Shown: piece by piece, positions 9,659 to 13,374 of the stretch
How the letters are laid out: each line of letters begins with the position of its first letter
Numbering within the stretch: the stretch's first letter is position 1
DNA from: Sphingobacteriaceae bacterium
GTDB lineage: Bacteria; Bacteroidota; Bacteroidia; Sphingobacteriales; Sphingobacteriaceae
Reading direction: 5' to 3'
Assembly (NCBI GenBank): GCA_947460875.1
Contig: CANHGR010000014.1
Location: 1 to 51,597, forward strand
DNA length: 51,597 nucleotides
The notes under the pieces: model-generated
Seen by the model: the letters and a program-made list of their open reading frames with translations, nothing else
Database searches by the model: none
What the model was told of the DNA's origin: nothing
Program-made: the position numbers and the translations under genes

Positions 9659-9731
<73 letters not shown>

Positions 9732-9743
9732 CCTACGAATTGT

Positions 9744-9825: not shown

Positions 9826-9897
9826 GGCCCGTTCGTCTAGGGGTTAGGACGCCAGGTTTTCATCCTGGTAACAGGGGTTCGATTCCCCTACGGGCTA
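9826..9897 (+). tRNA. tRNA-Glu (TTC)
   Basis: The acceptor GGCCCGT (9826-9832) pairs with ACGGGCT (9890-9896) with a G-T wobble at the end. The anticodon stem-loop CCAGG-TTTTCAT-CCTGG gives anticodon TTC, and the T arm is AGGGG-TTCGATT-CCCCT. CCA is not encoded. An intrinsic terminator follows at 9912-9948. The last 12 bases (CCCTACGGGCTA) recur at 11427-11438, which is a possible integration scar. Confidence 0.95.
9886..9897 (+). repeat. Candidate att repeat, left copy (3' end of tRNA-Glu)
   Basis: CCCTACGGGCTA is exactly the last 12 bases of tRNA-Glu and is repeated in the same orientation at 11427-11438, 1541 bases away. Duplication of a tRNA 3' end is what site-specific integration into a tRNA gene leaves behind. 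No integrase is present between the copies, so only a remnant could be involved. Confidence 0.4.
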
Positions 9898-9911
9898 CTT
9901 CAATTAAATTT

Positions 9912-9948
9912 AAAACCCCTGTAATTCAATAGATTACAGGGGTTTTTT
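9912..9948 (+). terminator. Intrinsic terminator of the tRNA-Met/tRNA-Glu transcript
   Basis: AAAACCCCTGTAAT (9912-9925) and ATTACAGGGGTTTT (9933-9946) form a perfect 14-bp stem with a 7-base loop, ending in a run of six T. It starts 15 bases after the tRNA-Glu gene. Confidence 0.9.
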
Positions 9949-10415
9949 AATTGGCGGGTAACAAATAACTAACACAATTCGTCCTTTAATGCAAAAAAGA
10001 GATCAAAATTTTATACAATCGGGCAGGAAGGCAGGCATTAATCGCCTCCGCTCCCCTTCTCGTTTTTAAGTGCTTGCAATGATGATAAACGTTTGAATCC
10101 ATTGCTCAAATTTCATGGTTCTGTTTCTTCTCCGGCTTGGTTTGTGTCTCCACGAACCAAGCATAACTCTTAACTTAAATCTTTCAGAAACGAAAATTAA
10201 TTATTTCTGCCTTCATAGTAAGTCGCTGAAGAATATGGGTAGTAGTCTACACTACAACTTGGTTAATGCCTTCACGAACCTCAAAATTCCTCCCGTAAAT
10301 CTATTACACCGAACAGAAAGGCTTGCTTGAGATGGATTTCGTATGAGCGAGTCGGAGACTCTTTTTTATCTGGGAATCCGTAGAGCCCAGCGGAACTCTA
10401 CGGATAGTGAGGTCT
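9949..10415. other. Gene-free stretch with hairpins
   Basis: No convincing gene is seen. A 71-codon plus-strand frame (10115-10330) has no family resemblance and overlaps hairpin repeats, so it is not called. The stretch holds two related 20-base hairpin units (10139-10158 and 10261-10280). A short hairpin, GAGTC-GGA-GACTC (10349-10361), runs into six T and would be a weak plus-strand terminator. A perfect 10-bp inverted repeat (10376-10385 with 10396-10405) lies just after the stop of the minus-strand gene at 10416 and may close that transcript, although no T-tract follows on the minus strand. Confidence 0.5.
10139..10280. repeat. Pair of dispersed hairpin units
   Basis: GGTTTGTGTCTCCACGAACC (10139-10158) and GGTTAATGCCTTCACGAACC (10261-10280) agree at 16 of 20 positions. 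The first unit is a good hairpin whose stem extends outward to GCTTGG / CCAAGC (10135-10162). Units of this shape look like a dispersed intergenic repeat family; only two copies are visible here. Confidence 0.5.
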
Positions 10416-11084
10416 TCACTTCAACTCGAAAATATACGTCCGGTCCGCGCCGGAGGTTTCCTTCCCTTGGTCCGTGGTGCCACGCGGAACGAACGTGATC
10501 CTTGGTTTCTGGCCTGTGAAGGAGACGACCACAGCATCCTTTTCATGCTGGTGCGCCGGTGGCTGAGTACCCTGCGCGGCAATGTCCTCCCAAATGATCA
10601 GGCGGTTGCTTTCGCGGACCTGCTTGCCGAGCCCTGTGGAAGCGGTGTTTGCGCCGCCCACCGCCGTCGTGGGTTCCTTAAGCTCAAGGAACACCGCCCG
10701 CAGCACATCCGTGCCTACCCCTTCTTCACTGTGGGTGACGCCACTGCGGAAGAAGAAAGTATCCCAGGCGGTGGTGTGGGTTGGCGAACGCTGGCCTTGC
10801 GGAGACACAATTACCCGATCGCCGCTGGTGTAATAAACGCCGGCATAGTCGTAGAGATGGCGGTGTGTGGGATAGGCGCGTTGCAGCCAAGAAACGTCCC
10901 AAACGATAACACGATCGTTCTCAAGCACTTTGGTTGCGCCTTCACGGTCAAACGGCTGGGGATAAGTCTGGGCAGTTTGGGGCGAAGTCTGAGCGGGCTG
11001 GGGCATCTGGGCCATGAGAGCTGCACTGTTGAAAAAGAGTCCTATCGCTAAGGCGATGGATTGAAAGTTTTTTTTCTTGTTCAT
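10416..11084 (-). CDS. GC-rich secreted protein with two cupin-like repeats
   Basis: This 222-residue protein starts with a signal peptide (Met-Asn-Lys-Lys-Lys, hydrophobic core, cleavage after Leu-Met-Ala near residue 25) and a Pro/Gln/Thr-rich linker. Two similar halves follow. Near residues 50-100 is VLENDRVIVWDVSW then PTHRH; near residues 155-205 is VRESNRLIIWEDI then PPAHQHEKD. The pattern (strand, strand, then Pro with clustered His) resembles the cupin metal-binding motif, so a tandem bicupin in the periplasm is likely, of unknown substrate. The codons are very GC-rich: bases 10441-10500 contain 40 G+C of 60, against 13 of 60 at 11281-11340. This suggests acquisition from a GC-rich donor. 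An opposite-strand frame is also long but lacks a signal peptide. Confidence 0.72.
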   Translation of the reverse strand: MNKKKNFQSIALAIGLFFNSAALMAQMPQPAQTSPQTAQTYPQPFDREGATKVLENDRVIVWDVSWLQRAYPTHRHLYDYAGVYYTSGDRVIVSPQGQRSPTHTTAWDTFFFRSGVTHSEEGVGTDVLRAVFLELKEPTTAVGGANTASTGLGKQVRESNRLIIWEDIAAQGTQPPAHQHEKDAVVVSFTGQKPRITFVPRGTTDQGKETSGADRTYIFELK

Positions 11085-11745
11085 GAATTATATTTTAAAG
11101 TAGGATTATAATAACGTAATCTAAGATATAAATCTTAGTTGAAACTAAGCCTATCTCCTTACTCGTAAAATGTATTATAGTTGATCGATTGTAAATTGAA
11201 GCTAATGAAAGTACATCACTTGGGTTCGTGTACATCGATTTATAAAGCCAAACGCTGAAGATTCGTTAACGTTAAATCGCATACAATTTTTCATACAATA
11301 TTTTCACTCACCATTTTTTAATCAATTGAACGAATGAATAAGAGATCTTAAAGATTCAAGCTTTGTTTATATAGTTCAAGTATTACTTTGCACAACTTTG
11401 CACAAATGAAACATGGGAAAGGGGAGCCCTACGGGCTATGAAAAACCTCATTTTTAATATCAGAAGTAGGGTTTTTTATTTTCGGGCCCTAGCTATCTTG
11501 ATTTACTCTTTTGATTAATGAGGAACATTAAATAATCTAAATCTAGGAAGTAATTATACTAAATGGGTTATGGATTAGGTATTTGATTTATAAGGTGTCC
11601 CTAAGTATTGAATTCGTTCGGTCGTCCCCTTTAATTCAAGATAAAGCATATACATCTTAGTTAAATATCTACCTAGCATAGATTAAGATTCCCCGGTTTG
11701 TATTATTAAAGGATTATGATTTCTTAGAAACGCGAAATCTAGCTC
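11085..11745. other. AT-rich gene-free stretch with promoter-like and att-like sites
   Basis: No gene is recognised in either strand. A promoter-like TTTG (in GCTTTGTTT near 11370) with TTACTTTG about 17 bases later is followed by the 12-base tRNA-Glu end copy at 11427-11438. After it comes an imperfect terminator-like hairpin, AAAAACCT (11441-11448) with AGGGTTTTTT (11468-11477). Together these look like the tail of a tRNA locus without the tRNA body. The rest, including the 260 bases before the M28 peptidase gene, shows nothing recognisable. Confidence 0.5.
11427..11438 (+). repeat. Candidate att repeat, right copy
   Basis: CCCTACGGGCTA is identical to the tRNA-Glu 3' end at 9886-9897. Flanking bases differ on both sides (GGAG before and TGAA after, against GATTC and CTTC), so the identity is limited to the 12 bases. 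A terminator-like hairpin follows at once (11441-11477), as expected for a displaced tRNA 3' end. Alternatively it is what remains of a deleted second tRNA-Glu gene. Confidence 0.4.
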
Positions 11746-11793
11746 TTGTTAATCTCAATTAATTTCTTGATATTAACAGTTAAACTGATTGAC

Positions 11794-13374
11794 ATGAAAA
11801 CACCACGTATTCGCTCTGCGGCAATAGCTGCATTCCAATTGTTAATTCTATTAAATTTTCTCTCGCTAGCGTCTCAAGCTCAAACGGCTCAGAATGCAGT
11901 AATCGATGCCATCATTAAAGAAGCGAACGAGAACTCACAGCTTGAAAAGATGGCACATGAGTTAATGGACGGTATCGGTCCGAGGTTGGTCGGCACGCCA
12001 CAAATGAAGCAGGCGAATGATTGGGCTGTTGCAACGTATCAGACGTGGGGGATCTCTGCAAAGAACGAAAAATGGGGAGAATGGCGTGGCTGGGAACGCG
12101 GCATATCACACATCGATATGATTTCTCCCAGAGTGCGTTCGATTGAAGGCACACAGCTGGCCTGGAGTCCGGCTACTGGTCCAAGAGGCGTAATAGCAGA
12201 GTTGATTATTCTCGCTGATTTGGTTGATTCTAATGCTTTTAAAGCATGGTTACCAAACGTAAAAGGCAAATTTGTTCTAATCTCCATGAACCAGCCAACA
12301 GGCAGACCAGATTATAATTGGACAGAATTTGCTACTAAGGAAAGCGCAGATAAGATGCGCGCCGATCGTGCCGCACAAACCACGGCATGGACACGCCGCA
12401 TCCAAAAAACCGGGCTAAATGCCCGCACACTCGCTATTACACTCGAAAAGGCAGGCGCGGCGGGGATAATCGCGAGCAACTGGTCGGCAGGATTTGGTGT
12501 AAATAAAATTTTTAGTGCTTACACGAAGAACATTCCAACAGTTGATATTGCGTTAGAAGATTATGGTCTACTTTATCGCTTGACAGAATCAGGAACTAGC
12601 CCGAAAATTAGCATCCGCACAGAATCGAAAGAGCTCGGGGTCGTTCCAACCTACAATACCATTGCAGAAATAAAAGGCAGTGAAAAACCTGAGGAGTACG
12701 TCATGCTTTCGGCTCACTTTGATTCCTGGGATGGTGGCACAGGTGCTACCGATAATGGGACGGGTACGCTGACGATGATGGAGGCAATGCGCCTGCTAAA
12801 GAAGTTTTATCCTAATCCTAAACGAACAATTTTAGTAGGTCATTGGGCAAGTGAGGAGCAAGGGTTAAACGGTTCAAGAGCATTTGTGGAGGATCATCCG
12901 GAGGTTGTAAGCAACTTACAAGCTTTGTTTAATCAAGACAATGGTACTGGGAGAGTTGTTAATCTTTCCGGACAAGGTTTCTTAAATTCTTATGATTATT
13001 TGAGTCGATGGCTAACCCAAGTTCCGGCAAATATTCGCTCGCAGGTTGTGACTTCTTTTCCGGGGACTCCGGGTGCGGGAGGTTCTGATTTTGCTTCCTT
13101 CGTAGCTGCCGGTGCACCAGCATTTAATTTAAGCTCGTTGAACTGGTCTTATAGCAATTATACTTGGCATACTAACCGCGATACTTACGACAAGATTGTC
13201 TTTGATGATGTAAGAAATAATGCGATTTTAACAGCTATATTGGTTTATATGGCATGCGAAGATCCATTAAAAACATCTAGAGATAAAAGTGTATTGCCTA
13301 TTAGTGTTCAAACGGGTCAGCCTGCGAATTGGCCGTCTATGGTGAAACCGACACGAAGGGGCGGCCTGGATTAA
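11794..13374 (+). CDS. Secreted M28-family zinc metallopeptidase with PA domain
   Basis: This is a periplasmic or secreted aminopeptidase/carboxypeptidase-type enzyme. I place the start at ATG 11794, where a signal peptide begins (Met-Lys-Thr-Pro-Arg-Ile-Arg, hydrophobic core, Ser-Gln-Ala-Gln). The 16 upstream codons in frame look like leader. The protein of 526 residues has a PA-type insertion (about 130-280) and then the catalytic domain. Zinc ligands are visible: His308 in SAHFDSWDGG, Asp320 in GATDNGTG, the Glu354-Glu355 pair in ASEEQG, the Asp in FNQDNGTG, and a late His in WHTNRDTYD. All expected residues are present. The nucleoside phosphorylase gene follows 10 bases after the stop, so the two are probably one transcript. 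Confidence 0.92.
   Translation: MKTPRIRSAAIAAFQLLILLNFLSLASQAQTAQNAVIDAIIKEANENSQLEKMAHELMDGIGPRLVGTPQMKQANDWAVATYQTWGISAKNEKWGEWRGWERGISHIDMISPRVRSIEGTQLAWSPATGPRGVIAELIILADLVDSNAFKAWLPNVKGKFVLISMNQPTGRPDYNWTEFATKESADKMRADRAAQTTAWTRRIQKTGLNARTLAITLEKAGAAGIIASNWSAGFGVNKIFSAYTKNIPTVDIALEDYGLLYRLTESGTSPKISIRTESKELGVVPTYNTIAEIKGSEKPEEYVMLSAHFDSWDGGTGATDNGTGTLTMMEAMRLLKKFYPNPKRTILVGHWASEEQGLNGSRAFVEDHPEVVSNLQALFNQDNGTGRVVNLSGQGFLNSYDYLSRWLTQVPANIRSQVVTSFPGTPGAGGSDFASFVAAGAPAFNLSSLNWSYSNYTWHTNRDTYDKIVFDDVRNNAILTAILVYMACEDPLKTSRDKSVLPISVQTGQPANWPSMVKPTRRGGLD

Follow-up and report, generated by a model that had tools for sequence, protein, structure and literature searches.

The locus considered here raises the question of why a bacterial genome should carry the end of one tRNA gene twice, with a gene of unusual composition between the two copies. 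A duplicated tRNA end around mobile DNA is the ordinary scar of insertion at a tRNA gene, a textbook mechanism, and tRNA-targeted elements are already well known in Bacteroidota. The window (the whole stretch of DNA analysed, 51,597 nucleotides of a Sphingobacteriaceae genome) very probably holds a decayed, integrase-less remnant of site-specific integration at the 3′ end of tRNA-Glu, resembling a cis-mobilizable element (CIME) and lying in a tandem site.

Two tRNA genes are present on the plus strand, tRNA-Met (CAT; 9659-9733) and an intact tRNA-Glu (TTC; 9826-9897); both were recognised by ARAGORN and were the only matches above gathering score in an Rfam search. The last 12 bases of tRNA-Glu, CCCTACGGGCTA (9886-9897), recur as an exact copy on the same strand at 11427-11438, in agreement with the original prediction, and identity ends after exactly 12 nt. 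With the tRNA 3′ end duplicated in the same orientation and the tRNA intact at one end, the segment has the anatomy of a tRNA-targeted integrated element, in which the first core copy would be the tRNA-proximal junction, the second the distal junction, and the tRNA-Glu gene would have been rebuilt upon integration. The unit between the cores measures 1,541 bp and comprises, in order, an element-end-like sequence, a spacer with REP-like repeats, a minus-strand gene for a 222-aa product, an AT-rich stretch and the second core. A search for a third, degenerate core farther right in the window found none.

The 12-mer is rare, whereas a very common one would have spoken against an integration scar. 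A scan of the whole genome (2,212,309 bases) found two copies of CCCTACGGGCTA, both at the tRNA-Glu locus, where a composition model leads one to expect 0.10 copies genome-wide and 3.4e-5 on the same strand within 1,541 nt. Among 20 related genomes (~77 Mb), three copies lie inside unrelated genes, and all others are tRNA-Glu genes or tail copies. Because of this copy number, the tiny expectation and the three stray copies in relatives, the match is not attributed to chance; although AGCCC-TAC-GGGCT makes a small hairpin by itself, coincidence is extremely improbable.

The same tRNA gene is an integration hotspot across this Bacteroidota family. The order der-era-tRNA-Met-tRNA-Glu is preserved in most of the 40 loci examined, and in six genomes (G161, G146, G131, G136, G172 and G167) a tyrosine integrase lies directly behind tRNA-Glu. 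The integrases of G161, G146, G131 and G172 were checked against Pfam, those of G136 and G167 being assigned by similarity: PF00589 was found in G161, G146 and G131, PF13102 in G146, G131 and G172, and PF17293 in all four, but below the cut-off in G161. In two of the six integrase genomes, G131 and G146, the same core, 13-14 bases long, also marks the distant downstream end of the element. G131 has it at the tRNA, with the integrase behind it (C45:28691), and again 113 kb downstream (C45:141666). In G146 it occurs at C2:457947, returns 25.5 kb downstream at 483454, where a second integrase follows, and appears again 175 kb further on at 658534. Since the core recurs twice and an integrase lies behind each of the first two copies, one tRNA-Glu seems to host a tandem of two integrase-bearing elements, 25.5 kb and 175 kb long (G146:C2:457947-658545; L080, L158, L167). 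At the last G146 end the identical stretch spans 13-14 bases (CCCTACGGGCTAC), in agreement with the 12-base repeat of the window; the core is also present in G167. The original reading of a 1.5-kb integrated remnant thereby gains a counterpart, as its repeat matches the core used by integrases at the same tRNA in G131 and G146. The tRNA-Glu gene behind era is thus documented as a shared hotspot in the family.

A deleted second tRNA-Glu gene had also been proposed; on this view the body of that gene was removed, or replaced, and only its tail survives as the second core. Duplicated genes are indeed available in the family: tandem Met-Glu pairs are common (for example in G147, G034 and G001), pairs 5-17 kb apart occur in G083, G103, G110 and G116, and partial tRNA-Glu tails lie behind the gene in several genomes of genus g22. 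However, the 60 nt before 11427 resemble the tRNA-Glu body no better than shuffled sequences do (p ~0.5), identity ends at about the core length of the integrase-borne junctions, and a foreign gene lies exactly between the two copies. With no tRNA body ahead of the second copy, a deleted tRNA-Glu gene is the less likely explanation, and quite an improbable one. An impression, gained by eye, of longer tRNA homology ahead of the second core was ruled out by shuffling.

Empty and filled versions of the site could be compared in the sister genus g6, one genus away from the window's lineage, by means of the genomes G029 and G069. In G029, tRNA-Glu is joined directly to the flank, as expected of an empty site. 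As far as the tRNA-Glu 3′ end, G069 is 96.6% identical to G029; 7.2 kb of additional DNA follows, and at another copy of the core (L128:11593) the alignment to the flank of G029 takes up again, with 74.5% identity over 7.4 kb. The direct join that an alignment with close relatives was expected to reveal is therefore seen in the sister genus. At the start of the insert, next to the tRNA, lies a large serine recombinase with Resolvase, Recombinase and Zn-ribbon domains. An intermediate copy of the tail (L128:10823) splits the insert, and behind it comes a unit of 770 bp containing a single minus-strand ORF. In G069, tRNA-Glu is thus followed by two units in tandem (L128, 4402-11604), the large serine recombinase element and the one-ORF unit. 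The G069 core differs little from the one used by the tyrosine integrases, such that two unrelated recombinase families converge on one tRNA tail. An M28 peptidase was dropped as a reference point for locating the empty site, since it is not beside tRNA-Glu in 29 relatives and therefore provides no synteny.

Both cores in the window are followed by hairpins. The one behind tRNA-Glu (9912-9946) is strong (z -6.4) and falls within 9899-9972 on the plus strand, which scores 16.1 bits against a profile of integrase-bearing element ends, a modest likeness that nevertheless exceeds the best of 1,240 shuffled sequences (9.1 bits). This hairpin, part of a probable element end, would now end tRNA-Glu transcription. 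The hairpin after the second core (feature 11438-11480, plus strand; fold 11438-11479) is a weaker one, with z -2.7, but genuine, and the second terminator-like structure of the original prediction is thus borne out. It is 92% identical over 50 nt (E 1.5e-14) to a sequence that lies in G161 between tRNA-Glu and the tyrosine integrase, and 83% identical over 58 nt (E 7e-10) to a sequence that follows the extra tail copy between the two inserted segments of G069. Because homologous sequence follows tRNA-Glu tails in two further genera, a coincidental 12-base match is strongly disfavoured.

Hairpins behind tRNA-Glu vary widely among relatives, and in G069 the native hairpin is situated farther out. 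The hairpin at 11438 is for these reasons taken as the probable end of another, older inserted element and not as the native terminator moved outwards, although it may instead be an inherited terminator common to the window genome and G161. The earlier view that the original tRNA end was displaced to the far side consequently fits the core, which appears to have been pushed out, but probably not the hairpin. Since the far hairpin matches the ends of other elements, two insertions are likely, the remnant probably lying ahead of an older stub. The sequence to the right of 11480 shows no synteny with any relative examined. Close to the distal end, on its inner side, the AT-rich stretch holds two directly adjoining copies of ACTTTGCACA (11385-11404, plus strand), which are possible arm-type integrase sites.

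The gene between the cores (10416-11084, minus strand) is compositionally unlike its flanks, as had been claimed, with 57% GC overall and 59% in its 3′ part versus 40% for the window. It encodes a 222-aa secreted cupin-like protein in which an HxH motif is conserved; the match to Cupin_2 is weak (E 0.087, under the cut-off), and an AlphaFold model is too poor for use (pLDDT 51.5). None of 394 other Bacteroidota genomes contains the gene. Across 84,980 scanned genomes, its nearest relatives were found in a Mucilaginibacter metagenome-assembled genome (MAG) and in two Alphaproteobacteria MAGs. A contig of the Mucilaginibacter MAG aligns at 87% DNA identity over 10380-11255 (minus strand), promoter region included, thereby defining a horizontally shared module; the two Alphaproteobacteria MAGs align at 86% DNA identity over the GC-rich coding part only. 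A Vicinamibacterales MAG follows at 57% protein identity. By these relationships, the gene is a horizontal acquisition from outside the family. Near 11005 the GC-rich part (59%) gives way to a low-GC part, which comprises signal peptide and upstream sequence and is shared with Mucilaginibacter. This arrangement suggests a chimera, in which a coding part of proteobacterial type would have been joined to a Bacteroidota leader before arrival at the tRNA-Glu site. Comparison of the unit, the cargo protein and the hairpin with phages, plasmids and viral contigs gave nothing useful beyond one 25% identical Bosea plasmid protein.

The spacer next to this gene carries a dispersed repeat (10301-10412, plus strand), in which the 3′-terminal 14 codons of a RAYT/IS200-like transposase gene (YYTEQKGLLEMDFV*) are combined with its REP palindrome. 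Of the matches in 46 other genomes of the family, most fall on 10301-10412, some in tandem, and the Mucilaginibacter contig terminates within the same palindrome.

No convincing trace of an integrase was found in 9899-11800 (best E 0.077). Elsewhere in the genome, one PF13102 match is a 298-aa XerD-like protein, no other element-type integrase is present, and no resolvase-family protein was found. The loss of the integrase, part of the original prediction, is in keeping with these searches. Because there is no convincing integrase inside, the segment is classed as a remnant and not as an intact tRNA-targeted element, and with no machinery left the unit is therefore probably inert.

A different account of the missing integrase would make the unit an autonomous minimal cassette rather than a product of decay, single genes being regularly loaded at tRNA-Glu by an integrase acting in trans. 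On this account tRNA-Glu would be a loading dock for tiny single-gene units, each with a 12-13-base tail and a hairpin, and integrases from neighbouring elements would build a tRNA-based cassette array. The 770-bp unit of G069, with its one minus-strand ORF between tail copies, is comparable to the window unit with its one minus-strand gene. The two are however the only examples and their contents are unrelated, the window genome lacks an element-type integrase, and ordinary decay accounts for both. The cassette is accordingly an unlikely reading, and so is the array.

A decayed remnant of integration can be placed among known systems. CIMEs, as described in Streptococcus salivarius and cited there for tRNA-Lys in S. 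agalactiae, are defined in a size class of 1.2-13 kb (PMC7563491). As a class, CIMEs arise from ICEs or IMEs (integrative conjugative or mobilizable elements) by deletion, and accretion allows their mobilization in cis. The window unit, at 1,541 bp, fits this class; like CIMEs it has two attachment cores, cargo and a tandem array at the integration site, recombination and conjugative transfer genes are absent, and the cupin-like cargo gene is the one complete gene that it contains. It differs in its Bacteroidota host and in the use of tRNA-Glu as integration gene, and the likeness is one of anatomy, which may or may not extend to descent from an ICE or IME. Within Bacteroidota, NBU1, NBU2 and Tn6031 are inserted at the 3′ ends of tRNA-Leu, tRNA-Ser and tRNA-Pro, respectively (PMC5704250), and the Riemerella 10K island at tRNA-Arg (PMC6764341). 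All four share site-specific integrase insertion into a tRNA gene, but they are larger and have their own integrase, whereas the window unit is at tRNA-Glu and has none left. The large serine recombinase element of G069 uses the same tRNA-Glu tail at the sister-genus locus, but its recombinase is still present and it measures 6.4 kb. An intact relative of the window unit was searched for and none was found.

The proposed origin is as follows. An element whose attachment site bore the last 12-13 bases of tRNA-Glu would have recombined into the tRNA gene through an integrase, keeping the tRNA sequence, supplying its own hairpin as the new terminator and displacing the old core to 11427-11438. 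It would have brought in the cupin-like gene, picked up outside the family, and would afterwards have shed the integrase along with most of its remaining content, so that a unit flanked by the two cores was left. The remnant probably sits before the stub of an older insertion, by tandem accretion. A gene shared across phyla can thus stay behind after the decay of its vehicle.

Two further arrangements were observed at tRNA-Glu in relatives. The loci with two separated tRNA-Met/tRNA-Glu pairs (L091, L085, L086 and L076, in G083, G103, G110 and G116, respectively) suggest insertions between tandem pairs. In genus g22, extra tRNA-Glu tails have the T loop replaced by a palindrome, for example CCCGATAGGTATCGGG (L079:2780-2822, L084:945-987, L161:200-237); those in L079 and L084 lie 80-100 bp behind tRNA-Glu and are gene-less, resembling either a microCIME or palindrome-invaded pseudogenes.
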